A DNA stretch of 64,000 nt, taken from positions 372,001 through 436,000 of the forward strand of contig NW_002476301.1 of assembly GCF_000189635.1 (NCBI RefSeq). The letters are read 5' to 3'. The notes below the pieces were generated by a model, which was not told where the DNA came from, did not search any database, and saw only the letters and a program-made list of their open reading frames with translations. The number at the start of each line of letters is the position of its first letter. Positions within the stretch are counted from its first letter, which is position 1. The position numbers and the translations under genes were made by a program. Shown piece after piece: positions 25,222 through 62,226 of this stretch. Source of the DNA: Tetrahymena thermophila SB210. Its lineage: Eukaryota > Ciliophora > Oligohymenophorea > Hymenostomatida > Tetrahymenidae.

Positions 25222-28200
25222 TCAATCATAATATGGCTTAAAACCTGACCAATCTTATGGTGCTTAATAGTCAGATTCGCTCATAAATTCAAGAGTAGCT
25301 TTAGTAGGTCCATCATCTTTTTTATCAATCAAAATTGTATCAAAAATTTCTTTTGATTGACTCCAATTTCCTTAAAGATATAGATCAAATGCTTTTTTAT
25401 AGATTTTAACAAATTCAAAATCAAAATCTTTTAAAATAAGTTTCATATCTTTGTCAGTAGTTAAATATTCCTTTACATCAAATACATTTGAATCCAAAAA
25501 CTGTAAATTTATTGATTTTTTCTACTTTTCTATTGACATTTTTTCTTAGATAGTTAAATCCTGTAATTTTGAAGGAGGCAACTTATCAACTTACATATCT
25601 ATAGTGTAAAATCCAATAGGCTATTTTATGGAAAATATTTTATAAATACAATAAATATATATAAAAGTGTGATTACTTTAGCTTAGCCTTTAATTTTTAC
25701 ATAATCTACCTATCTAATATATTCATGGAAGTTTGGAGTCAGTAAGTTATATATATCAGAAGAAAATAATAGTGGGACTCCATATCCTTTAGTTGCACCT
25801 TCTAAACGAGATGACATTGAGACATTTGGTGACAAATATGAGGCATCGATCTTAAATTCTGAGCCTATAGCACCCTCTATACTCCAACCAATGTGTAAAC
25901 CATATCCAATTTTTACCTTTATTTTAAAAATTTTAAATTTAAATGATTTTTTATCTTTTATATTTATTTGATGTCTAAAGAAATAAATTTTGTTTTTAAT
26001 TTGAAAAACTTATTATGTTTTTATTTGAATAGCTAAATACATATTATGAAATTTATTGTTTAAATTTAACTAGCTCATTTATTGTTTGAATTTTTTTATT
26101 TAAGTTCATATAATCTTATAAAAAATATCATAAAAATTACTAAAAAGATATGTTTTAACTCTTTTGTAAATTCTAGATTAAACAAATTATTATTAAAAAA
26201 TGATATGAGTTTTGAAATATTAAAATTTCTATTTATATAATTTGAAAGTTAATATTATAGTTTGATAAGGAACTTACTTTATAATTAGCCATACGTTAAT
26301 TAAGCCTTTGATCTTTTCTATATTCTAAAATGATAGGTTCTCTGTTAATTTTGGCTTATATTTTCATAAACGAAAGAAGAGCAAATTCTGCCATGATGCA
26401 TGCATAATTAGGGTCTTTGAAATCAATAGTATTATCTTCATTAACTTCATATTTATCCTCCTAAAATTTCCAAACAAGCAAGAAAGCATCACCAATATTC
26501 TATTTTAAAATGATATCTTTAAATTTAAAATAAAATAGAGATAATGAATTAATTACCTTATTTGCAGCTCCCATAAATCTGTCTACCATAGTATGAACAA
26601 TATCTCCTATATTGTTTACAAAGATCATAACGTCTTCCTATTTTCAAAATGAATTTATTTAAATTATAACTAAAAATAAAGTGAATTATAATTAATTTAT
26701 TACCTGTAACACTTCTGTAGCATCTGTGAAATTTCTGATATCACAAAATCCATAAATACAACACTTTTTCTTACCTGAAATCATAGGATCTACTTCACCG
26801 TGTTTGGCTATGTTGCTTCCTATAATTTCACTTCCTGCTTCACCAAAACCGAGAGCAAGCAGCGCTCCAATCTTTACAATAGCATTTTCAATAATTCTTG
26901 TTTCATACTAATCCTAAGACTCATCTATAAGCTCTTAATCTTTAGCTGAAAGTGGATCATTTGCAATTTAATTGACCTTTTATCATTATTTAGAAATTTA
27001 TTATTGATATAATCCCAATTATTTAATTTTTTTACTTTATTAATCATACGTTCAATAGGTCCAAGAGCTAACTTTTATGCATCCTATGAAAAAAAGAAGG
27101 CTGCAAGCAAAAGTACTATAGAAACGAAAATTGTTCTACAAATAGAAAGGATAGCATCTAATACTGACAAATCTCTAACATTAACAACTGATATAAAAAC
27201 AAGTGGATCATCACTTTTTAGTATTGTACCTTATGAAGATATTAAGTCAGGATGGTTCTATAAAAATATATTTCTATCTAAATATGATACAGAAGGTAAT
27301 AATTCTGAGTCTCTATAATTATCATATGAGTCCGAAACCCAATCAAGGCTAGTTTAGCTAAAAGGTTAGGTGAAATAAACACACGGAGATTTCAAACCTT
27401 ACAATGTAGTTAATGTATTTGAAATGCTTGAATATATGTTTTAAATAGAAGAGGTTGATAGTTAACAATATCTAGCAAGGGCAATAAGATGAAAGTCACT
27501 TGAATAAGGTAAATCAAAGTAAAAACTCTTTTAAAACATAGGTAAAAGAAAAAGAAGCAGCAAGATCACAATAACAACTTTCTTAGTTGTTAAATCTGAC
27601 AAACGCTTACTTACCTTGGATTCTTTAAGTTTGGCTTATTGTAATTCCTCTAACTTTTTATCAATTAAAAATTTATAAAATACAAAAAAAAAATGGAAAA
27701 AATCAATCAATAAATAAAATAAAATAAGCTCCAAAACATAAATTACATTTTCAGATTCATTCTTACTGATATTCAATTAACTATCTATATTTTGATTTGT
27801 TTAGTTGTTTTTTCTATCACTATTTCTATTTTCCTTACTTTTTGGTAATTCTATACTACCCCTTTCACCATGATTACCATCTTTGTTTGAATTATTTTAT
27901 GAATTTGTTACAGTTCCATCAGGATTCTTATTTTTTTATTTGTTTTTTAATGACTTTTTACCTGATTTATTTTAACAATTTAAGTTTTCTAATTTTTTTT
28001 TCTCCAATCTCTATTTTTACTCAACAGCTTACTTATATATTCTTGTAATTCTTATGAGCCTTATAAGACGTACAACCCTACCAGCTCTAATAATATTATC
28101 ATTTAAAAATTTTTAGCTCATTAAAACTAACTTTAACTTGAATTATTGAGAAAATATAATTTATTGATTAACTTCAAATAACATAAGTCTCCATCTATCT

Positions 28201-29441
28201 AACTAGCAAATTATAAATTCTATAAAATAGATTTTAATTCTAAGATAAAATTTTTTTGTATAAAAGTTGTAGAGGAGGAGATTAACTAAATTTATTCCAT
28301 AAAATTTAATATTTATTGAAGCCTTGAAAATGCTTATTGAGTTACAAATTTTTTAAAACTTTAAAATATTGTTAAAAATGTTAGTTAAATAAGTTAAATC
28401 AGATTTATAATTTATTAAAATGTGGTAAAATAGTTTTTAAATTTAATCAAATACTTATGCAAAAAGCTATAAGAATAAATAAAATATTTAATTTATTATT
28501 TAAATACCTGGTTCCAACACGAGAAGCTCTACTTGCTCTTGTTAACTAAATAGTGTTTCTTATATTATTTTAAAAGAATATCACTCTATTTAGAGACTAA
28601 ATATCAAGTAGCATAGTTGATGTAGATACAATATCTAGCCAAAAAAAGAATGAATATCTGTACTGAGGATAGGATATAGACTATATTATTATTTAAAATG
28701 CAAACGCTGAAATGCAAGTAATAGTTATGGCATCAAAGTAAGGATCGGCTCCCTATAATTTATGACCAATTAGTAAAATAATTAAAAGTAAAAAAATTTA
28801 AAACTAATTTTGTTAATGAGTAAAGTATGTTATTTATTTATTTATTAAAAGATTATCCTTGCTAATAAGGATATAATTTATCCAATATAAATAGAGGATA
28901 ATTGTATATTCATTTCATTTATGATATTCTACTTATATAATCTTTTTACTTTTGTAGTTGCAGCTACTCTTATATCGTCTCCAAATAGAGCATATATAGT
29001 AAATATAGCTAATATTAGTTGAAAGTATATTGAATCATGAAGTTCAGCTAGTTTTGGGTATTTTTAATTTTCATTCAAATTAAACACATCTATCTTCTTT
29101 CCATCTTTGTTTGATAATCTTTCTTTTCCTTTAGAAGATGGCTGTTGTGATAAATTAATTCTAGACATATTTTGCTATGATGCTATGTTTCTAATCTTTT
29201 CATCTGACTTTTGACTAAATTTTGAAGGTCTTCTAATATTGTTATTTAATACCTAAATCTGTTATTTAAATATGTTTGTTAACATAATTGCTTAATTTGA
29301 TCAAATTTTTACATCTGTTATATTATTCAGGTTTGAGTCAAATTATTATGTTGGACCCAACGTATTCTTTAAAATGCTTTTTCTTTAACCAGTAGCATTA
29401 TTTGGTTTTAAATTAGGTTCAGCTAATGCAACAGATTGCAT
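25222..29441 (-). CDS. Membrane class III nucleotide cyclase with voltage-sensor-like N-terminus
   Basis: ATG at 29441, TGA at 25222-25224. The N-terminus is cytosolic and Ser/Asn/Gln-rich. S1-S3-like spans follow (FQLILAIFTIYALFG; ITITCISAFAFQIII; FFFWLDIVSTSTMLLDI). Then comes an S4-like helix with Arg at every third or fourth residue (SRASRVGTRAGRVVRLIRLI), split by an intron of about 420 bases (28087-28507). A polar linker follows, then a span (VVIVILLLLFLLPMF), an exposed region of about 150 residues, a second span (IFVSIVLLLAAFFF) and the cyclase domain. The metal-binding Asp residues are in FCDIRNFT (about 26730-26750) and NIGDAFLLVW (about 26490). The domain continues as GLHIGWSIEGAIGSEFKID and SPNVSMSSRLE, and the C-terminal tail ends near GNWSQSKEIF. 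No S5-pore-S6 was found. It presumably makes cAMP or cGMP at the plasma or ciliary membrane. Some introns are provisional. Confidence 0.85.
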
Positions 29442-30759: not shown

Positions 30760-33700
30760 TCATTATTTATTCATAGTATTTATTGTTTACTAATATTGGT
30801 TACCCATTTATCCTGTAGGATAAATATAATTTAAGTTGTTAGGGTTGCTTTATCCTCCGAAGTTAGGATTATATTAACTATTATCAGTATATGGGATAAA
30901 TGCTTAGTTGTTATTTGATAAGTCAAAGCTATTTCGTTGCATAAATAAAAATTATTATCCATCTTCTATTTTCATTGGATTTATTTAATTTATAGACTAT
31001 GCCATATTGCCCATATTGCCTATTACTTAGAATGAGGTATTATTTGTAGAAAATTAGGGAATACCCATCATATTTGCACTCATACCTGCGACATGAGTTG
31101 GTCCTGCAGTATTCTAAATTCCAGCTGAAAAGTGCTGGCCAGTATTTTATCCAGTATTATAATCATTATAGTAAGCAGGTTAGCTCTAATATAAGTTATT
31201 TGGTTATGTCTACTGAACGTGAGCTTAGTTTTAGTTAATTGCTGATTAAGTTAGAATTTAAGTATTATGAGCTCCACCTAATATATTAGTAGTTGCTGGA
31301 AGTATTTACTAAGGGTGAGTACTCTAAAAGCTAAGAGTTGTATCTTGCTGAGGTATTCCTATTTATTGCTGTTGATTACTATTTTATTTATGCTATTATT
31401 ACATCATTATGTTTTAATTATTTTAGGTATTTTAGTATTGTGGGATAGAATTTGTATTAACAATTGCTTTATTTTGAACTTTAATATTATTTGAGTTATC
31501 GCTAATTTTATTAAAATAAATATTCTTAATTTAAAGAAGGATTTAAAAAATAAATTAATAAATTACAATCCGTTGTTATTGTTGTTGTTGTTGCTTGTAA
31601 AATTGATCTAGTCAACTTCTTGTTGCATCTACATACTTTTATTATTCTACACTTTGGTGTTATTATTGCTGTTATTTTAAGAAGCCTAAGCCCATATTTT
31701 TTACATTTATTGCTATTGAGATGGAGGAGTCAAAAATATTTCATTTTTAGTTAAATTAACTACAGCATAGGAGTATTAATCTTACTCATTGTACTACAAA
31801 TCTTGGTAGTTCATTACTTTAAGCTTAATTTCATCTTTCATGTCAATGTGTTCCAAAGAAGGTATCTTCTGCTAAACGAATCCACCTTAGTTTTGGTTTT
31901 GCTGGTTATTTTAATTTGGAATATCTTAGTATGAGTGACTCACAAATTCTTCAATGCTATCTGCTTTAGATCTGTTTATAATATTAAAAATACAATTTAC
32001 TTTTGTAATTTTCTAAAATATTTAATTTACTAAGTAATTTAACCTCCGAGGACTATTTATTAATTAAAGAAATCAAAGTTTTAGCTTCCTATATGAGGGT
32101 TACTGGCTATATTTCCCTAGCTTGGTTGAATACCTTATTACTGTTGTTATGGAGGATGTTGCTATTAGTTAACGCCATTTTATTAGTAGATACCTTATTA
32201 CTATTAATACAATCCATTCTTCATCTTTTCATCGCTACCTTAAAGCTACTATTAATATTAACTAGGTTGATAATTATTCTATTTTTGATAGTTTGGAGCC
32301 TTGTATGGACTGTTTGAATCAATAGCTTTAGGGTTCTCAGAGTTATTTCTACTATTTTATTTAAACTAACTTTCTTGATGAATTTGTTAGCGAGGATGAG
32401 TCTAATGCTGAAGATTAGAATTACTGCTTTAGTAACCTAAAGCATTGTTGGTATTTGTATTTTCCATTTCGCCATCTTCATCTTGCTTGCATTTTATTTA
32501 ATCTGAGTAGGCTTTGCTAAAAATGGATTCTATTTTAATAAATAATTTTTTATTTTAAATTTATTGCTTTTTGTAATTTTCATATTTATTACTTTAGGCT
32601 GTATGGGGAGAAGGAGAGTGCCTTGAAGTATCATCATCAGAAGACATAGATTCGTAGTTTTTGTGAATAAATTATAGCATTTTGTGTTTTTATTTTTTAA
32701 ATGCTTTAGAATTGCGGCTTGAATCAGAATAAACAGAATTATTGTCACTAGAATAGCACTCACTGGAGTTTATTTTAAGATTGTTTTCGATATTTTTTAT
32801 AAGCTTGTTTATCAATTTTTTCTCATTGACCATATCTTTTCCTAATGGTGAATCCATTGTTCCGCCATTACCGCCGCTATTTTGGTTTTATTCGCTGCTT
32901 ACTTCTTCTGATTCATAAATTTAGGAATCTTCAAAGGAATCTTGTATTCCTGCTTTTTCATTTTTCTCAATGTGCTTTCTAAAAATGGCATGAAATCTAT
33001 TCTTCACTGCATTTTCAGTCCTACCTTTTAATTTTTTTGCTATAATTGACCATTTTTTACCAAGTTCTTTCGCCAACTTTAATAATTCTAAATCTTCTTC
33101 TTATGTCCAGCTACCCCTATTTATTTTATATAATTTAATAAACATACTTCTTCTATAAGTTAGTTAGTACTTCTTAATATCAGGATCATGATAGTTATTA
33201 AAGTGCTCTCTACATTATTTTGGTGTTCTATAAATTTTTTAGTTTGTTTCATAGAAGAGTCTTGTGGATACTTCTACCCAATCTTTTTTACCCTTTTCTC
33301 TAATTTTTACAATTTAATTTTTATGAAATATGTTTTTAAAAATTAAAAAGTTATTATTTTACTAAACTTGATTTACAATAGTGGGAAGAATTTCATTTTC
33401 TTCTTTTGTCCATGGTTCATCTTGTATGTTGACTTTACACATTTTTAACCATTTAAATCTACAACTTTCTTTATCTTTTCCGGGTACCATATTAGCTATG
33501 AATTACCAATCACTTTCAGTCTATTTAAATAAACGAATATGTTAGGTTGAGTATTAAAAATAAATTATCAATCAAATTTAAATAAAAATTTAGTGTCCTC
33601 TAATTTAACATAAGAATTAATGGTGTTTGTTCATAAAAAAATTTATTTTTAAAATTATTTATTTTTGATGATTTTCTTTTTCTCATTCACAAACTTAATA

Positions 33701-43886: not shown

Positions 43887-46800
43887 ATGGGTGGTAAAAG
43901 TAAGTAAAAACTTATAGAATTCTAAGTACCAAGGGCAAATTTAGATTTATCGAGCTAATAGTAGGGAAATAAGGAGTATTTATAGATTTAACAATAGCAT
44001 TAGCAATCATACGGAAACATATCTTCATAAAATTTTGGTTTATAATACTAAAATAATAATTATTCAAGCCCTTCTTCTTTTGCAATATCGAGTTCAAATT
44101 CACATTAAAAATATAGATCTCACTCATCTTCTAAAATATTAAGGACACTAGAAAATAGTTTAAGCAACAACATAAATAATCCTAGCGATCAAATATTTAA
44201 TTCTCTTTGTAATTAGAGTGCTAATTAAGGAAATGTTATTAATAATAGTTAGTTGTAGCATAGCTCTAGTTTAAACACTGCAGCGAGCAGTTCGAATAAT
44301 AACAATAATATGAGTTAGTTGAATTTATCTTCAATAAATACAGCTAATATGAGTTGCAATAGTCCTAGCAATTTTATGAATTTACAAATGTCATTTTAAA
44401 ATGGATTTACAGCCTTGAATAATAGCATTTAAAACCCAATAAGTCCTAACCCTTTTACAATAAATAACACTTCTATGATTTAAAACTAATAATAAATTAC
44501 TCCAATATCTTTAAATTCTTAAATGAATAGCTCTCTTTACAGTGTAAACAATGGATAGGTATCTTCTTAAGCCTAAACAAGTCAAGGGTTTAATATATAC
44601 AGCTAATAAAAGCTACAAATTTTAGCATTAGAGCAAATGAACAAATGCATATAACTCAGTAGTTATAAGGAAGCTTAGAAAATTATAGAATCAAATAACA
44701 TCACTGCTGAGGAAATTTATTCATTTAAAGAAAGGTCTAACGAAAATATAATTTTACATAGCTTGGCACTGCGCTAGGATTCAAGTGTATTTTTAAAATA
44801 TCTAGATACCCACATGACAATAGAATTTAATTAAGTAAATAGCTCAGGATAAACTCCTTTAATGCTTGCTTGCATGAAGTAATAAATAAAAGAATTAAAC
44901 TTGTTATAAAATGCTAATTTTTTTTTTCTTTATCTATTTTAAATTAAAAATCATAATATGAATAATGCTCTAATAAATTTAACTTGTGAATTTAAAATTA
45001 CTAAAAGAACAAAAACAAAAAATAAAATTCTTGATTTCAATAGTGAATCCCTTCTTCAACTTCATTTTGAAAGCAACACTTTTACTTTATTTTAAATTTA
45101 TAATTACAAATTTTAATCCTTGGGTAGAAACAAACTAGATTACTATTCATCTATATCTATTTTCAGAATTTTTATTTTTATTTAAGAAATAAGTAATTAA
45201 TCAATCAAGCAATTTGATTAATATTTGTTCAGTATATTTTCTAGCTCAATTTCAATTTTTTTAATTCTAAATAGAAAAAATTTTTATTTATTAATTCATT
45301 GATAAATAAAATTAAACTTTTTTTATTTGTAAAAAGAGGAAATTATGATGTCGCTAGATTTTTAGTTTCGCATAAAAGTGTAGATATAAATTCCTAAGAT
45401 CTCGCAGGTAACTCATCTCTTCACTACGCCTGCATGTATGGATAAAGAAAAATTGTTGAGATGTTATTAGGGTAAAAACAGGTACAGTCTTATATAAAAA
45501 ATAATGATGAAAAGTAGCCAAAAGATATGACATAAGATTCAAAAATATTACAGCTATTTAATAAATTTAGAAAAGTGAATCTTGATTAAAGTTATAGCAG
45601 TGGTTCTGCTGCTATGAACATAACTTTAAGCTACATAAATAAGTAAGATTTAACCAACACAAGCCAATATAAAGATTCTCCAAGAACAAATTCAAGGTCT
45701 AGACAAAATAACATTTAAAACTCTGCATCTAATTCTTAGCATCATAACAACTAACTCTAAAGATCTCACTCTAATTCATCTCATTCTTCTAATCTTTAAA
45801 GTTTGCACTATAATTTTGTCAGCAAATTAAATAAATCTACCACTAAAAATACATTTCTCACTCTGAAATAAGCTCTTAATTCATAAAACTAAACTACTAT
45901 TTCAGGTTAAAAAAATGATAGCAATCCAAATTCAAACAAAGGATCATCTGTAAATAGTCCAATTATAAAGCGCCACCATTCTCCAAACATACATCTATAG
46001 AAAGCTAAATCTGCTATACATCCTCCTGCTGTATCTACATTTTTTACACAAACTTAATAGTAAGCAAATAGTCCAACTGATTTTATACTAAAAGGATTAA
46101 ATTAACTTAACGAATCACAAGTCAATTTAGGTACCAGTAATAATTATGTTAACAATAATCCAAATAATTAAACAAATTAGACAGCTTCTTAAGTTTTAAA
46201 TAACTCTATAAGCATGAATTATTTCGATAAGAATTTCATGACTCCAAATAATAATAACAACAACAATTAAAATAATCCTAATTCTTATTTATCTTCTGCT
46301 GAAGGAAGCAATAAAAATTAACCATCTTAACAATTAAATTATTCCACACTGTAATAATAAAATCAATAATTTAACCAAAGCATGAATGCATTATTTAATT
46401 TACAACCTTTCTCTTAAAGCAAGAGTATGAATAACTTTCTTTAATCAAATACTTAAAGTCTAAACAGCATAGCTAACTAAATTCATAACCCTAATACCTT
46501 AACTTAGATGAGCTAAACTTCGAGATAAATGACTTAAGGTTGTAACTAAATGGATAACGAAAGTGGTTCCTTAAATTATATTCCAATAAACTATGGTATG
46601 CTAGAGAGTGTGAATGTTAGCACAAATAATTTCACCCCATCATAATTGTAATCAAATATAACAACACAAAATAATATAGGAGAACCAATAAATGGAAAGA
46701 AAAGCAGTTAACCAAATTTAAGTTATGTAATAAATAACAGCAGTAATCTAAATGGTAACTAAAAGGCGGAATAAACTTAATTACTCTCTAATGGCTATGA

Positions 46801-48918
46801 AAATGAAGGTAGTGCTATCAATAATATTTCTTTAGTATCTCCTTCGAAAAGCATTTCAAATAATACATAATATTTCAATTATAAAACACCCAGCTAGACT
46901 ATCAATAATAATTTGAACAATGGTTCTCAAAATCATAACAGCACAGCCAAAACATAGTGTAACTCACCACTTTTGTAGAGTGCATAAATGTAGCATCACT
47001 TAAATACGATAAATAAAATTATTGAAAAAAAATAACGTAGCAGAAGCCAAAATTAATTTTCCAAAGCCAAATCTTAAGTTGGACCAATAGCTGTTAATTA
47101 AAATAATAACAATACAAACAGTCAACAATCTTAAGCGCCTTCGAATGCATAAGCAAAAATTTCAACTTTTGGTACAAATGCTGCTGCATCAACTCCAATG
47201 AATAAAGATTAAGCTTAAGAAAATAAAAACAGTTCTGATTCTAATGAGAGTACAAATAATACTTTGCAAACAGCTTCTTAGTAAGCATTTCATTAAAGTG
47301 TATCACTAAAGATTCAAGGTTCAAATAATGTTAGTTAAACTAACATCCTCACCAATAATTCATGTGGACCTCTTTCTGCCACCTCAAAAGCTAATTTTTT
47401 TAATTCTTAGAATTAATCAACAAAAAATAAATAAAACTCACAATAAAATGTTTTAGGAGCAGGAGGTTAATATGCATTTTAATCTGCCTACACATCTCCA
47501 CAACTACAGTCATCCTCATTATAACAATTTAATAATTAAATAGGTCATATTGACTAAATATTCTTAAATTCTCAAACAAATAATCAAAACAATTTATAGT
47601 AGAATCAGCAAGCTTTACTTAAATATTTGCCACATAACAAATAATCTACACCAAACTAATAAAGTTAAAATATTTCTCAAATTCAACCATAACAAAATTT
47701 CCAACTGTCTTCTAATTAATCTTAACTGTACGGTATAGAAATATACTCAGTTTATGCACATTTAGGTAGTGGTAATTATGGTGATGTTTATTTAGTTGAG
47801 CATAATAAAAATAAGAAAAAGTACGCAATGAAACTGCTTGACAAAGAAAAACTCATATGTAAAAATTAATTCAATAAAAATCAAAGTAAATTTTAAATTT
47901 TAAATATTAAAAATAGAAAAAAATATGATGAAATATGCAATTGCAGAAAGAAATGTAATGCAAAAGTGCAATTCTCCATTTATTGTAAAAATGTATCATT
48001 CATTTTAAACCGATACACATCTGATAATTACTATGGATTACTGTCCAGGAGGAGATCTTTACACTTATTTGTTATAGAAAAAGAGGTAAGAATTTTATTT
48101 AAATTGAATTTTTATTGAATCTGGCAATAAATAAAAGGTTTGAAGAGGAATTAGCTGTGAAATATTTAAGCGAAATATTGCTGGCCGTTGAAGAACTTCA
48201 CTACCATGATGTAATTTATCGTGACATGAAGCCAGAGAATATTGTGCTTGGTAGCGATGGACATGTTAAATTAATTGATTTTGGACTTTCAAGAGAAAAT
48301 ATGGGAGAAGGAGTTGCTTAATCATTTTGTGGGTCAGCAGTATATTTAGCTCCAGAAATAATTAGCAAAAAAGGTCATAACAAATCAGTTGATTGGTATT
48401 AATTTGGTGTGCTTGCTTATGAATTAATGGTTGGCTAACCTCCTTTCAATCAATTAAATCGCAAAGAATTATACTTCAATATATAAAATAAAAAAGTCGA
48501 ATATCCTCCTTACTTATCTTTTAAAGCTAAATCTTTAATATCAGCAGTAATATTATCTAAAATATACTTCATAATTTATTCAATTATTATATTTTATATA
48601 AAGCTTTTAAATAAGAATCCTGAAGAAAGATTAGGATCAGGTCGTGCTGATGCCTAACAAATAAAGGATCATCCATTTTTCGATTAAATAAACTGGTTTG
48701 ATGTTAAATAAAAGTAAAATTTGAAATTAAAATTTCTTATTAAATTATTTTAACATTTTTAAATATAAAATTGATAAAGAATATTTGACATGCCTAAGCC
48801 TCCAGCTCCTAATCCTATCAAAGACTTTAAAGTAGACATAAAAATAAATAAAAATAATTTAAGTACTAACTAATTAATACCTGGATGGTATTACATAGAT
48901 GAATAAGAATTAATTTGA
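43887..48918 (+). CDS. Ankyrin-repeat AGC-type protein kinase
   Basis: Ser/Thr kinase with an unusual build. ATG 43887 gives MGGKSK, a possible N-myristoylation site. A Ser/Asn/Gln-rich region follows, then ankyrin repeats split by an intron ([54 protein letters not shown]). Next is a very long Asn/Ser/Gln linker (about 45550-47720). The kinase domain is last: [12 protein letters not shown] (Gly loop), [10 protein letters not shown] (Lys), [47 protein letters not shown] and [21 protein letters not shown], followed by an AGC-like tail ([12 protein letters not shown]...) to TGA 48916-48918. All catalytic motifs are intact. Introns interrupt the ankyrin region and the kinase domain (for example 48087-48137). 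Ligand and substrate are unknown. The ankyrin part may anchor it. Confidence 0.87.
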
Positions 48919-51006: not shown

Positions 51007-51589
51007 ATGATAAATTCTTATGACTTACTACAAATTTTTAATTATTCCTTGTAAGTAAATAATTTTGATAAAACCTGACTTTAGTAAATGTGATGAAAGT
51101 TATTTTGATAGTTATACTTTAAAATATCTTAGAACTTAATAAGAAGAAAGAATAATATTTTAGGAACAAATTATTCCTTCTAATTTAATGAAAATGTAAA
51201 AACTATTTTCAAAAATCATAGAAGAAATAAATAATAATAAAAAAGAAATTTTAATTTCAACTTATAGCTATTTATTGAATTTAAAAAAAAGGAAACGAAC
51301 AAATGGAAATATATTAACAAACAACCAAGCTTTATTTACAATGTTTGATTTATAAATTATATTAATGAATTTTAACAATTAAAAATAAATTTAAATTAAC
51401 TAAAAATATCAATTTTTTCTTTATTTTCCCTTAAATTAAACTTTTTTAAATCCTGGCATATTAGGTTCTTTTAATATTTTAATTGGTTTTAAATCTTCTT
51501 CCTTTTAATTTTATACCACAGCCTTTTATTATTCAGAAGGTGCAGGCTATACTATAACATCTCTCTATAGCTAAGTTAAAAATTCATGA
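51007..51589 (+). CDS. Small orphan protein, overlaps convergent EF-hand gene
   Basis: Exon 51007-51050 (MINSYDLLQIFNYS) joins in phase across a very short 34-base intron (51051-51084, GTAAGT...TTTAG) to a frame with good protein composition: CDESYFDSYTLKYLRTQQEE, then IIPSNLMKMQKLFSKIIEE and YSYLLNLKKRKRTNG, up to about 51390. The first in-frame TGA is only at 51587-51589, inside the opposite-strand EF-hand gene, so either the two genes overlap tail to tail by about 180 bases or another intron exists. Lys/Glu-rich, probably helical. No family recognised. The 34-base intron is at or below the usual minimum and weakens the model. Confidence 0.4.
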
Positions 51590-53988
51590 AAATTAATTCT
51601 GCCTGAATTAGCTGTGAAGCTTAATCTTTTAAATATTCCTATAAATTCTTCTTTTTCATAATCTCCTCCTTTTTAATTTAAGTAATCTACTAAATCATTG
51701 ATAACTAAAAAACCTTTTTAGCTTTTATCTAGAGATTTAAATATCTTAAAAAGAATTTCTTCATCCCCTTACATGTCTTTAAAGCTTTGAATAGACTTTT
51801 CTATATTAATCAAGTGAGTAAACAATTATTAAATAAGTTTTTTTTATTCTTCGCTGATATTTGACTATTTATTTAAATAATCTTGTATAAAAAGCAGAAT
51901 AGTAAATAAATAAATTGGTTAAATAATACGCTTAGGTTTTTGATGAATTAGAATGATTTTTTTTGTTCTTTAATAACTCCATTTTTTGGTCCTACAAAAG
52001 AAAATATTTGATTTATCATTGTGCCTTATCTTTAAATAATATTTTAAGAATTAGTTTAATTTGCTCAAAATAAAATTAAATTATATTTATTACTTTTTAT
52101 TCTATGCAAAAATCTCGGCGAAGTCACAATACCTATAAATAAAATAATTTATTGAAATTCTTTAACTAATATTTAAAATATACCTTAGTTGTTTATTTTC
52201 ATCTTGTAAATAACGAGAAAATATCTTCTAAACATAAACTTTAATATAAGGAATAGATAGATTTTCTAGTCCTTCTAAAAAGCTATTAATGTCGATACTT
52301 TTCTTTTTCTTTTTATCAAAGAAGTTGAACATAATCTAGATTGAAAATTCTGTCGACTTTAATATTTCATCTTTAACTTTATCTATTTCACTGTCAATTG
52401 TTATTTATTCTACTAGAAATTTGATAAAATAAACCTATTCTGCATCAAGTTCGGTAGTTATTTTGTTTAAAAAATTCTATGATTATACTTTTGATCTTAT
52501 CTTTTCAATCATAGCAACTTACTTAGATTTATAATGATTGATAGAATCTGATTTATTATTTTTTTGCTCTAGTTTTTCAAGAATGTTATTCTTTTAAGGA
52601 GACTATTGTTTTAAGTATTATTTCAACTATTTGTTGAATTCTTATTCTTAGAGATTCTATTAGAATTACTAAAATCCTATTTCTTTTTGCTACCTTTGAT
52701 GAGAGATGAATAAATCATAATATTCTTTGCTTTTAAATAAAGATGGATCATCAGTAGGTGTGGGCTCAGTTCTCTATTTTTTCTGTTCGTTATATTCTTT
52801 AAAGAAATTCTACTATTACTGAGGTTATTGTTATAATTGCTGTTTTTTAGTTTCCTATTTTTTTACTTCAGCAAATGGTAAAGTTAAGTCAAAGTTTACT
52901 GGGGATTACTATGGTTTTTCTAAGACTTAATCATATCTATTTGCCTGTTTAACTTAGTTATTTTCAATAGAAAAATTAAATGAAGGTTAAGGTAAATAGC
53001 TTGTACTTTTATTGATATTTTCATAGTTAGCTTCTGGTTAATTATATGATGGATTTTTAATTTAAAAATCTACAAGAGATCTGTTTTTGTCTCTTTTTAT
53101 ATATATACTTTCTCCAACATGCTAAGTGAAAGCAGGCACATTAGACTTCTAATCAAAAATTACTCTACTTTGAACTTCAGGTCTTTCATCGAATTTATCT
53201 TTGTTATACATAGGTCCAGAAACTACAGGATCTTATGAATATTTGCTAACTGGTATAACTTATGGGTTTGGTTGTGCTTAATAGCTTAAAACTTGATTTG
53301 CTTAATTTAGCGTTGTGGAATTTGAGTAGACAGGTGCAGATTTATCAACAGGATAGTTTTTAGGCAATGTTTTAGCATTAACATCAAAATTTTCTAAAGG
53401 ATCTTTAAAGTTTTCGAAATATTTATCAACATCAAAATAGTTAGATCTTTTAGGAGATTATTCAAAAGCATATTTCTTTTAATTTAAAGAGCCAATAGGG
53501 TTATTAGAAGATGAGAATTTATTGGGTGCATTTAGCTTATTTAATTCGAAATCTAAATCATTAAATGGTTTTGGGCCTGCATTTCCTTAAAATTAATTAA
53601 ATTAGCCTTCAACTGAACCGCTCACATATTTGTTTGATCCTAAATATTAATTAACTGGTCCATTTTGAGATGAGGGAGGAGCAAAGGGTTTGTTATAAGA
53701 ATAGGCATTATTAGATATAAATGAAGAAGTAGATGGATAAATATCTTTTTATCCAACTCCTGATTGGAAATCACCAAACTAATATTGCTTGTAAGTAGAC
53801 TAAGGACTCAGAATATTTAGACCTGCTCCGTAACCACCATATTGCTTTGGTGGAGAAACATTCAGTTAATGAGATATCGGTGTAATATTATTAATATTAT
53901 TTGGTGCACCATAACTTCTAATAGCTGGAGTATTTTTATCATACTAATTAACCTAAAAATAAGAACTTGGGTTAAAACTTGACGCCAT
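51409..53988 (-). CDS. EF-hand-containing protein with long disordered N-terminus
   Basis: ATG 53988 (MASSFNPSSYFQVNQYDK), TGA 51409-51411. The first 400 or so residues are Pro/Gln/Asn/Ser-rich with repeated Phe/Tyr-Gly and Gln runs, likely disordered. A Gln-rich coiled stretch follows (QQFQQNLQEQEFNKQLKQYL). The C-terminal half is helical with EF-hand-like units: FNFFDKKKKKSIDINSFLEG (loop with Asp, Lys, Lys, Ser, Asp), IFKSLDKSQKGFLVINDLVD, and FKRLSFTANSGRINFHEFL. Several loop positions are not the usual acidic Ca2+ ligands, so some hands may be structural. Two introns lie near 51840-52075 and 52140-52185. Possibly a cytoskeletal or membrane-trafficking Ca2+-linked protein; no specific family was recognised. 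Confidence 0.72.
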
Positions 53989-54758
53989 GTTAAAATTAGC
54001 TTCTGATTTTATTTTTTCTAAGTCTCTTTAATACCTAAAATATGATTTTTTGTTATTGATATCTTAATTTCAAGAAGAAAATACTATCCAAAAAAAAAAT
54101 ATATCTAATAATATCACTTTTTTATTTTGTTTTATTTTCAAATTAATAAACAAATGATCAATCAATCAATCAAATTATCAAGCAAACTATTAAATAAATA
54201 AATAAATAAATTAACAATTAGCTGCTTTGTATTTATTTATTTAAAATTTGTTTGCTTTTACAACTTATAAAATTTATGAAAAACTTATTGTTAATTATTA
54301 AATTTGAAAATCATAAATATTAGTAAATACTCTCAAAATAATTTATTTTTCAGATACTAGCAAACTGAACCCATTCTATGCTTATAAAAAATTATAACAC
54401 ATATTTATCAACCTTAACAAAAAGTCAGTTAAGTGCTACTCTATTTTATTTTAAAATAATAAATTTCAAAAATGTTAAAAATAAAAAAAATTGTTTTTGT
54501 TTTTTAATTTATTAATTTTTCTGTTTATTTTTATAAAATTATCTATTTAATTTAAAATAATTTATTAAATTAATTTTAACAAATTATTCAAAAAAAAAAT
54601 ATTTTTTTGTTAAAAAAACTATTTCTGATGTGTGATCAATCTTATTAGAAAACATCAAAAATAGCTTTGGTATTTTTGTTTGAAACAAATTTGTGGTAAA
54701 AATAACTTAAAATTTTAGGCTTTAATGACAATAAATTCAAATATAACATATATAAAGC
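53989..54758. promoter_or_regulatory. Divergent intergenic region
   Basis: 770 bases separating the EF-hand gene (-) from the orphan at 54759 (+), so it must carry both 5' control regions. It includes a run of CAATCAATCAATCAAATTATC near 54151-54175 and AAATAAATAAATAAAT. No motif can be assigned. Confidence 0.4.
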
Positions 54759-60317: not shown

Positions 60318-62226
60318 ATGATCAATTTAAAACATGTAGGCTCAGAAAGTGATTCTCTCAAGGATCAGTTCTTAATAAATTTAGATAACATGGTAGGTAA
60401 AGGATCATATGGAAAAGTCTATCTTGCATATAACTGTGAAGATTATTAAAACTAATAGCTTAATAATCCTATTTGCGCTAAAGAGATACCTAGAGGACTA
60501 ATATCAGATAAAATAGTTAAGTCCATAAGAAATGAGGCATAAATTCAAATGTCTAGCAAGTCTCCTAGAGTTCTTAAAATGTATTCTTTTAAATAGACTA
60601 AATCAAATGTATGCAACAAACAAATTTTTCAAATAATACTAATATTTAATTCTAATTTTAATAGGTTTATTTCTTTTTAGAATATTGCCCTGATGGTGAC
60701 CTTAAATAACTTATCTACAATAGTGTAAATTTTTTTATGAAATTATTCATCTTTTTCTAGCTTATGTTGTCCTTTAAAAAATATCTAATATGCTTCTACC
60801 ATTTTAAAAATATAAAAAAATGAAATTTTGAAATATTTTTTAAAGAGTTCTAAAGAAAAAAATAACGATGAATCTATTATAATAAATAAACACTCTTTAT
60901 AATATATAATTTAATTAATATTTAAATATCAAGAATCTTACAGAGAAGTAAATTATCTATCTATTTGGACAAATAGCATAAGCTCTTAATGAATTAAAAG
61001 ACGAACGAGTTTACCATAGAGATTTAAAGCCAGAAAATATTCTCATAAAAGATGGTGGTATTAAGATAGCAGATTTTGGATTTTCTAAAATCGTAACAGA
61101 ATTTACAAAAAACAATACCTAGGTAGGAACTCCATTATACATGTCTCCTTAAGCATTATCATCAAGCTACTATGATTTAGAAAAAAATGACGTTTGGAGT
61201 GCAGGATGTTTATTGTATGAGATGGTTTATAAGAAACTTCCATGGAAAGTGAATATAGATACTAGTGTTGGAGGGTTATTCTAAATAATCAGTACTGGAA
61301 ATATTAATTTTCCAAAAGAAGTGAATGTATCTCAAGAATTAAAAGAATTAATTAATTTAATGTTGGAAGTTGATGAAGAAGGAAGACTAGATTGGGATGA
61401 TATAATTAATAAAGAAATAATCAAAAAGAGCTAATAAGATCAAGCGATTAAGGGTTAAATCTAATAAATAGCTTTAAATAACAGATAAAAGCTTCTAAAT
61501 GAGTAGATAGCAAAACAATAGCAGCTCATGGCCTAAAAGCAGTAATAATAAAAATGTTAATAATAATAAGAAAATTAAAGTTAGGCTTAGTTGAAAAAAG
61601 CAGGATCAAATGTAGAAAATGTAAACTCAGACGAAGATGAAGACATTTTCGAGTCAAGCAATGACTACTAACAAGAAAATATATCTTTAAAAATATAGGA
61701 TGATACACCTTAAATATGGAAAATAATTTAAATGCATAGAGCCCTGTATAAATAAATATAAGCTAATCTGTAAGAGTCTAGTGAGAAATTTAATTTTTTA
61801 ATTTGCCTAAAACACGAGGAATTTTCTCTTTGCAAAAAATATGTTGCTCTAGCTGAAAAACAAAAAAATAAACTTGATTCTAATATTTATGATTAAATTT
61901 AGTTTTTGATTTAAGATATTTAAAAAGGAAATTAATACAAAGAGCTATAACAAAACCTTTAATAGCTAATTAATATTACCAAACAAAATGTCATCATAAA
62001 TAAAGAAAATTATTTGTCTATCCTACAAAATACTTATCTCAAATACAAATAAAAGGAGCTTGAGACAATTAAAACTAAAAGTGAGCAAGAGCAGCATTTT
62101 ACACTACTTTTGCTCTCAAAAATAAAATTTATCGCTTATCACGATTATGAATACAGAGGAAGTTACAAAATTTCTAATTTAGATGAGCTTTAAACTAGCC
62201 AACTTCTTAATTACATAATAGTTTGA
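60318..62226 (+). CDS. ULK-like Ser/Thr protein kinase
   Basis: ATG 60318 (MINLKHVGSESDSLKDQFLI), TGA 62224-62226. Kinase motifs in order: GKGSYGKVYLAY, CAKEIPR (ATP Lys), LEYCPDGDLKQLIYN, then after an AT-rich intron (about 60725-60955) FGQIAQALNELKDERVYHRD, LKPENILIKDGGIKIADFGF, VGTPLYMSPQAL, NDVWSAGCLLYEM and GRLDWDDI. The APE Glu is Gln (SPQ, written TAA), a change I associate with ciliate ULK-type kinases; other catalytic residues are intact. After the kinase domain come a Gln-rich stretch and an acidic patch, then about 170 residues of predicted helix (IQDIQKGNQYKELQQNLQQL), perhaps a regulatory or EAT-like region. Small introns also lie near 60609-60664. ULK kinases act in autophagy or cilia; which applies here is unknown. 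Confidence 0.85.

Follow-up and report, generated by a model that had tools for sequence, protein, structure and literature searches.

The minus strand of contig NW_002476301.1 of the ciliate Tetrahymena thermophila SB210 (assembly GCF_000189635.1) carries an intact gene in which a voltage-sensor-like domain is joined to a class III nucleotide cyclase; no S5-P-S6 pore was found between the two. We analyzed positions 372,001 to 436,000 of the contig, a stretch of 64,000 nucleotides (hereafter, the window) in which all coordinates below are counted. The gene is most likely an ordinary member of the alveolate ion channel/adenylyl cyclase family (Weber 2004; ACalpha), and the K+ pore reported for this family is, judging from sequence, most likely no pore. 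It is probable, in our view, that the product is an intact member of this family and a pore-less membrane enzyme, in which the sensor would act through a linker and two further transmembrane spans (TM5 and TM6) on a dimeric cyclase that makes cyclic AMP (cAMP). The family itself has been known since 2004, and the fresh point is the one about the pore. K+ conduction by the adenylyl cyclases of ciliates and malaria parasites has been an unsettled matter since 1992; the anatomy of six Tetrahymena paralogues and one distant relative provides a concrete counter-reading, in which the enzyme has an exposed region but no pore and is driven by voltage.

Gene structure and relatives

The gene runs from an ATG at position 29441 to the end of a TGA at 25222, exactly the interval picked out in an earlier reading of the DNA letters (the sequence-only reading). 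It must be read in the ciliate code (NCBI code 6), in which TAA and TAG encode Gln and TGA is the stop. Its 10 exons then give 951 residues with no frameshift, and a spliced aligner supplied with the 951-residue protein recovered the same exon borders. All introns are of the GT-AG type, with an A+T content of 81-89% vs 65-75% in the exons. The encoded parts are, in order, the S1-S4 sensor, a polar linker, TM5, an exposed region, TM6, the class III cyclase and a C-terminal tail (Table 1). Six spans were counted: S1, S2, TM5 (residues 367-385, hydropathy peak 2.36) and TM6 (peak 2.45) were prominent by hydropathy, and S3 and S4 were assigned by homology.

The Tetrahymena genome assembly comprises 445 contigs and 101,022,631 bases. 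A telomerase fragment encoded in it agrees at 79 of 79 residues with PDB chain 6d6v_A, the telomerase reverse transcriptase of T. thermophila, in line with the species. Whether the query was the window protein or the most divergent copy, a search of the genome returned the same six loci: the window gene, L040, L039, L041, L042 and L043. L040 lies about 100 kb from the window gene on the same contig, and the starts of L041 and L042 are about 16 kb apart. The gene models of the five paralogues are approximate in the linker and the exposed region. In a prokaryote genome collection, one of 263 candidate stretches encodes a relative, L044 (1-6910), on contig JAIYDP010000293.1, which is binned in a Verrucomicrobiaceae metagenome-assembled genome. 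Translated with the standard code, L044 has several introns of 34-37 bases; an intron-bearing gene points to a eukaryotic origin, and the contig is probably a protist contaminant misbinned with the bacterium. None of 138 candidate stretches in viral contigs encodes a relative (tblastn). Both scans covered sites with one of two conserved peptides, so that distant relatives would escape them. With L044 as the root of the tree, L040 came out as sister to the window copy (ultrafast bootstrap 100). The order of parts was identical in all six Tetrahymena gene models and in L044, which has a shorter S4-TM5 linker and an exposed region that differed between two guide sequences and is thus not fixed.

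The voltage-sensor half

Residues 121-246 matched the Pfam Ion_trans model only at positions 3-110 of 241, which is its S1-S4 half. The score was 27.8 bits (cut-off 25) when the sensor was scanned alone and 21.7 bits, below the cut-off, within the whole protein. Six of the seven family members have an Ion_trans match (best E 1.8e-11). When the seven sensors were combined in a profile and searched against PDB, every one of the 13 sequences found at E up to 10 was a voltage-gated K+ channel, with Shaker as the best match (E 0.009). In S4 (residues 218-246) the basic residues are R218, R221, R224, R228, R231, R234, R237, R240, R243 and K246, spaced by three residues throughout except for one four-residue step from R224 to R228. 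The sequence-only reading had described about nine Arg at three-residue spacing, and the nine Arg found here, together with K246, bear this out. The densest part of S4, with seven basic residues on eight three-spaced places, was equalled in 2 of 2000 shuffles of the protein.

The S4 basic residues at three-residue steps are largely conserved across all seven members, the S2 Phe and the S3 Asp (D186) are kept in every member, and the S2 Glu is present in six; the S2 of the family aligns with the F-x-x-E of Shaker S2. This conservation suggests a working sensor. The member without the S2 Glu is the window copy, which has Gln 166 where the five paralogues and L044 have Glu. The sensor is split over more than one exon in all six Tetrahymena gene models. 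The resemblance to Shaker and canonical Kv channels comprises S2-S4 and the Phe-x-x-Glu of S2; unlike these channels, the window protein has no S5-P-S6 and no filter between TM5 and TM6.

Absence of an S5-P-S6 pore

The features of a voltage-gated K+ channel (S5, pore helix, TVGYG-type filter and S6) are absent from the window protein. After S4, a hydropathy scan showed no hydrophobic peak from residue 247 to about 355, in agreement with the polar linker proposed earlier. The sole intron between S4 and TM5 is intron 4, and exon 5 spans TM5, the exposed region and TM6 without interruption. Because this intron is only 93 bases long, the linker is polar and exon 5 is unbroken, there is no room for S5-P-S6. 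G-aromatic-G strings of the kind found in K+ filters occur three times in the protein, at residues 590 (GFGEAG), 743 and 783, the latter two within the cyclase; none lies between TM5 and TM6. The sequence-only reading had named a pore, or a separation of S4 from the cyclase, as what would contradict its pore-less architecture, and we saw neither in the genomic sequence.

Two ways in which a pore or a further span might be hidden were considered and set aside. A separate pore within an intron is ruled out by the 93-base length of intron 4, the peakless polar linker and the same order of parts in six copies. Intron 4 itself is in frame and open, and as coding sequence it would add a hydrophobic stretch, but its A+T content (86%) is like that of the other introns. 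No counterpart of the translated intron was seen in the paralogue gene models. It may be retained in some transcripts.

TM5, the exposed region and TM6

The sequence-only reading gave a single span, an exposed region of about 150 residues, a second span and then the cyclase. This layout stands, with a shorter exposed region of about 120 residues (386-507). Identity to the paralogues is 14-30% in the exposed region vs 37-53% in the sensor and 46-68% in the cyclase. An AlphaFold model of exon 5 (11 alignment rows; mean predicted local distance difference test [pLDDT] 62.7, predicted template modeling score [pTM] 0.38) drew helices for TM5, one exposed helix and TM6, with nothing reliable between them and with pLDDT below 50 at model residues 88-157. 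No ligand-binding fold was recognized in the exposed region by a Pfam scan or in this low-confidence model, with which no fold search was made. A HAMP domain after TM6 was also considered and rejected; Pfam found none at E up to 1, and the resemblance is limited to a by-eye one in PIxxM...NPL.

The rapid divergence of the exposed region, which is often seen in receptors, bears on an explanation that we regard as unlikely: TM5, the exposed region, TM6 and the cyclase would form a ligand receptor, the sensor would be vestigial or an anchor, and an outside ligand would be the main input. In available excerpts of the Paramecium literature (here and below, papers given by PMC number are cited from such excerpts), hyperpolarization increases cAMP (PMC4588038), and among chemical stimuli that hyperpolarize similarly only L-glutamate raises cAMP, within 30 ms (PMC8964087), as a receptor would predict. 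According to the same source, lowering outside K+ alone raises cAMP, which argues against a ligand as the main input, as do the conserved sensor residues described above. In addition, no ligand-binding fold supports a receptor, and the rapid divergence may reflect a plain lack of constraint.

The GFGEAG motif and the reported K+ pore

Published descriptions of the family place a GXG motif after TMD6 (PMC3283738); two papers that cite Weber 2004 describe an N-terminal S4 and a K+ pore-loop located at the cytoplasmic face (PMC6243130 and PMC5632652). The window protein and its five paralogues have a GXG after TM6, as the literature gives for the family, which argues that they are members of it and not a pore-less offshoot. 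The contrast that the sequence-only reading drew with established pore-bearing ciliate and Plasmodium cyclases was thus not upheld: their GXG is reported at the same cytoplasmic place. GFGEAG is most likely the GXG of the literature, and the even number of spans would put it on the cytoplasmic side of the membrane. As described in citing papers, the Weber 2004 family (PfACalpha) shares with the window protein the N-terminal S1-S4 sensor, six spans, the GXG after TMD6, a single C-terminal class III cyclase and occurrence in Tetrahymena. We found no architectural difference from these descriptions; the window copy differs from its paralogues by the S2 change from Glu to Gln and a change of the catalytic Asn to Ser.

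In the window copy about 60 residues separate TM6 from the motif, which belongs to a block before the cyclase that reads IGxLLAxGFGEAGS in all six Tetrahymena proteins. GFG is identical in these six copies; the distant relative L044 has AFGEAG, in which the first Gly is replaced by Ala. In the alignment of all seven members, no span was seen from the motif to the cyclase. The A-F-G of L044 and the lack of a span after the motif are evidence against a K+ filter.

These observations bear on the published view of a genuine K+ channel/cyclase fusion (Weber et al.), in which the GFG block would fold into the membrane as a non-canonical filter and K+ flux would regulate the enzyme. The unchanged GFG in the six Tetrahymena copies agrees with it, and a 2023 review still gives the 2004 proteins a K+ pore, describing the recombinant protein as lacking definite functional characterization (PMC10651576). 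Its difficulty is that the motif lies well beyond TM6, leads on to the cyclase without an inner helix in between, reads A-F-G in L044 and has no counterpart between TM5 and TM6. In excerpts of the literature, no definitive assignment of the family to functional K+ channels is possible (PMC3283738), the K+-channel activity of Plasmodium ACalpha is unconfirmed (PMC5746546), and sensor-cyclases without pore homology were described in 2025 in Phytophthora relatives (PMC12223298). We consider a true channel fusion improbable.

Several points weigh against a pore-less enzyme of this family. Residues 575-593, leading into GFG, form a weak hydropathy peak (1.38; threshold 1.3) that was not counted as a span; this weakly hydrophobic segment, which also favors the channel fusion, may be in contact with the membrane. 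In an AlphaFold model of the L039 exon that runs from TM6 into the cyclase (17 alignment rows; mean pLDDT 70.6, pTM 0.47), GFGEAG (model residues 120-125) was drawn as a helix at pLDDT below 50. In 1992, K+-channel properties were reported for the purified Paramecium cyclase (told in PMC5746546 and PMC3283738), a conductance that a pore-less protein leaves unexplained unless a channel co-purified; and exocytosis by Plasmodium sporozoites is blocked by K+-channel inhibitors and K+-free medium (PMC2279260). Both reports speak for the channel fusion as well. The gene model derives from genomic sequence and not from transcripts, and family membership rests on features described in papers, not on alignment with the Paramecium or Plasmodium sequences. 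Finally, with S772 in the cyclase (see below) and Q166 in S2, both the enzyme and the sensor of the window copy may be weakened or altered.

A literature search returned no paper on this Tetrahymena gene and none arguing that the GXG block is no filter, a weak result as subscription papers were mostly outside its coverage. The closest description concerns PPTG_13136 and PPTG_13761 of Phytophthora parasitica (PMC12223298), which share with the window protein the Ion_trans sensor, the lack of pore homology and a C-terminal Guanylate_cyc domain. By description, then, the window protein is of the Phytophthora type, having the Ion_trans sensor half, no pore homology and a C-terminal cyclase. This type is said in the same source to be limited to Stramenopiles and Alveolates; its excerpts mention neither a GXG motif nor an ectodomain flanked by two spans, a difference from the window protein that was likewise compared by description only. 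One protein is found mainly on a single flagellum, according to excerpts of the cited literature.

The cyclase domain

The cyclase matched PF00211 with 32.1 bits (cut-off 21.9) when the first 103 residues of the protein were omitted, and an untrimmed scan of the whole protein gave no PF00211 match. Together with the Ion_trans S1-S4 half in the same intact gene, this match confirms the fusion of a voltage-sensor-like domain to a class III cyclase proposed by the sequence-only reading. A six-member cyclase profile matched photoactivated adenylyl cyclases best in PDB (E 2.2e-14) and also CyaB, and a single-sequence search reached photoactivated adenylyl cyclases at E 1.7e-8. Foldseek with the L039 model gave OaPAC and bPAC as top matches (E 3e-7, template modeling score about 0.3). 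These two are the closest solved cyclase domains to the window family by sequence and fold search. Both are soluble proteins with a BLUF light sensor, and differ from the window protein in having no voltage-sensor helices.

Residues were assigned through PDB alignments to the roles that we take to be those of the metal Asp, the purine-binding Lys 665 and Ser 765, and the transition-state Arg and Asn. The window cyclase carries both metal Asp (D626 and D669), the adenine-type Lys (K665) and the transition-state Arg (R776). At the transition-state Asn position it has S772, where all six other members have Asn. The residues at the purine positions, Lys 665 and Ser 765, suggest that the product is cAMP. 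In the paralogue L043, Ser replaces the first metal Asp 626 (FCSIKNF), and the Asn and Arg are intact, so that L043 and the window copy have complementary losses.

In class III structures each chain supplies different active-site residues, which is the basis for the idea of a mixed dimer, and the C1 and C2 halves of mammalian cyclases pair likewise. The window copy could accordingly be a half-enzyme that pairs with a paralogue supplying the Asn and Arg, with L043 as a fitting, putative partner; we give this a low probability, and it is compatible with the pore-less enzyme that we favor. The complementary losses, the window frame open throughout and the retention of both metal Asp are consistent with such pairing. 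Against it, Ser may still support slow catalysis, and the losses in the window copy and L043 may mark decaying copies.

Proposed mechanism

In the pore-less enzyme that we favor, the four helices S1-S4 would form the voltage sensor, and S4 would shift with membrane voltage. The shift would be passed via the flexible cytosolic linker and the conserved LSDLTT segment to TM5, and from TM5 to TM6, where any signal from the exposed region would join it. TM6 would act through a conserved segment to set the dimeric cyclase, with cAMP as the output. No ion pore would be built, and the GFG motif would belong to the segment before the cyclase. Ci-VSP serves as a working analogy, a pore-less voltage sensor driving a soluble enzyme in both cases; the window enzyme differs in being a cyclase with two extra spans and an exposed region, and no phosphatase domain was found.

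With this layout, membrane voltage and an outside ligand may both control cyclic nucleotide synthesis, as the sequence-only reading suggested. More tentatively, and with clearly less confidence than for the window protein itself, we raise the possibility that the whole family (ciliates, apicomplexans and stramenopiles) is non-channel: the enzyme would be switched by voltage and tuned by the exposed region, voltage and an outside ligand would both act, and GFGEAG would be a coupling element. If true, this would explain the L-glutamate-specific cAMP rise within 30 ms reported in excerpts on Paramecium (PMC8964087). The anatomy singles out GFGEAG and the S4 Arg as the telling residues, and it ties in with the known cAMP response of Paramecium to hyperpolarization. 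How far cAMP governs beat frequency is itself disputed; a review reports that injection of cAMP at constant voltage left beat frequency unchanged (excerpts of PMC8208649).

Features of the gene

Table 1. Features of the sensor-cyclase gene in the window (residue numbers refer to the 951-residue protein).
Feature	Position in the window	Strand	Basis or remark
Whole gene, 10 exons, 951 residues, code 6	25222..29441	minus	genomic gene model and spliced aligner
Exons 1-5	29441-29313, 29258-28950, 28752-28508, 28086-27747, 27653-27036	minus	
Exons 6-10	26976-26704, 26637-26557, 26499-26278, 25916-25677, 25620-25222	minus	
S1-like span, residues 122-142	28962..29024	minus	hydropathy; Ion_trans match begins at residue 121
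S2-like span, residues 152-172, with F163 and Q166 (codon TAA)	28675..28737	minus	hydropathy, alignment
S3-like span, residues 179-197, with D186	28600..28656	minus	homology, without a hydropathy peak
S4, part 1, residues 218-228	28508..28539	minus	codon 228 split by intron 3
S4, part 2, residues 228-246	28032..28086	minus	
Polar cytosolic linker, exon 4 part, residues 247-341	27747..28031	minus	variable between paralogues, 13-24% identity (approximate, some paralogue linkers hand-trimmed)
Intron 4, 93 bases	27654..27746	minus	86% A+T, open in frame
Conserved LSDLTTKKV and TM5, residues 359-385	27522..27602	minus	model helix at 354-381
Exposed region, residues 386-507	27156..27521	minus	no recognized fold
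TM6, residues 508-529	27090..27155	minus	hydropathy, AlphaFold model
GFGEAG, residues 590-595	26833..26850	minus	within the conserved block that precedes the cyclase
Class III cyclase domain, about residues 618-823	25609..26766	minus	PF00211, alignments
C-terminal tail, residues 824-951	25222..25608	minus	23-32% identity to paralogues

Other cyclase loci and neighboring open frames

A PF00211 search of the genome gave 50 matches. Apart from C36 and C171, these were sorted by eye into 14 clusters, in which neighboring matches lie a few kb from each other. The search missed all six sensor-cyclases and is thus not exhaustive. C36 (L046) and C171 (L047) are cyclase loci that resemble soluble-type adenylyl cyclases and lie beside a nucleotide-binding-like segment (by eye). 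No K+ filter motif was seen in the 9 kb read at C36 and C171, the 14 other clusters being outside that look.

Within the window, the upstream neighbor on the same strand as the cyclase gene (31943-33571, minus) encodes three Myb DNA-binding stretches (PF00249, 97.6 bits). An open frame at 51412-54069 (minus; 886 residues) encodes a pair of EF-hands close to the C terminus (PF13499, 34.1 bits). On the plus strand, open frames encode a dynamin central region (1211-2512; PF01031, 161.9 bits), ankyrin repeats together with a segment that weakly matches the beginning of a protein kinase domain (45218-48115; 24.2 bits, below the cut-off) and the C-terminal part of a protein kinase domain (60832-62223; PF00069, 139.5 bits).

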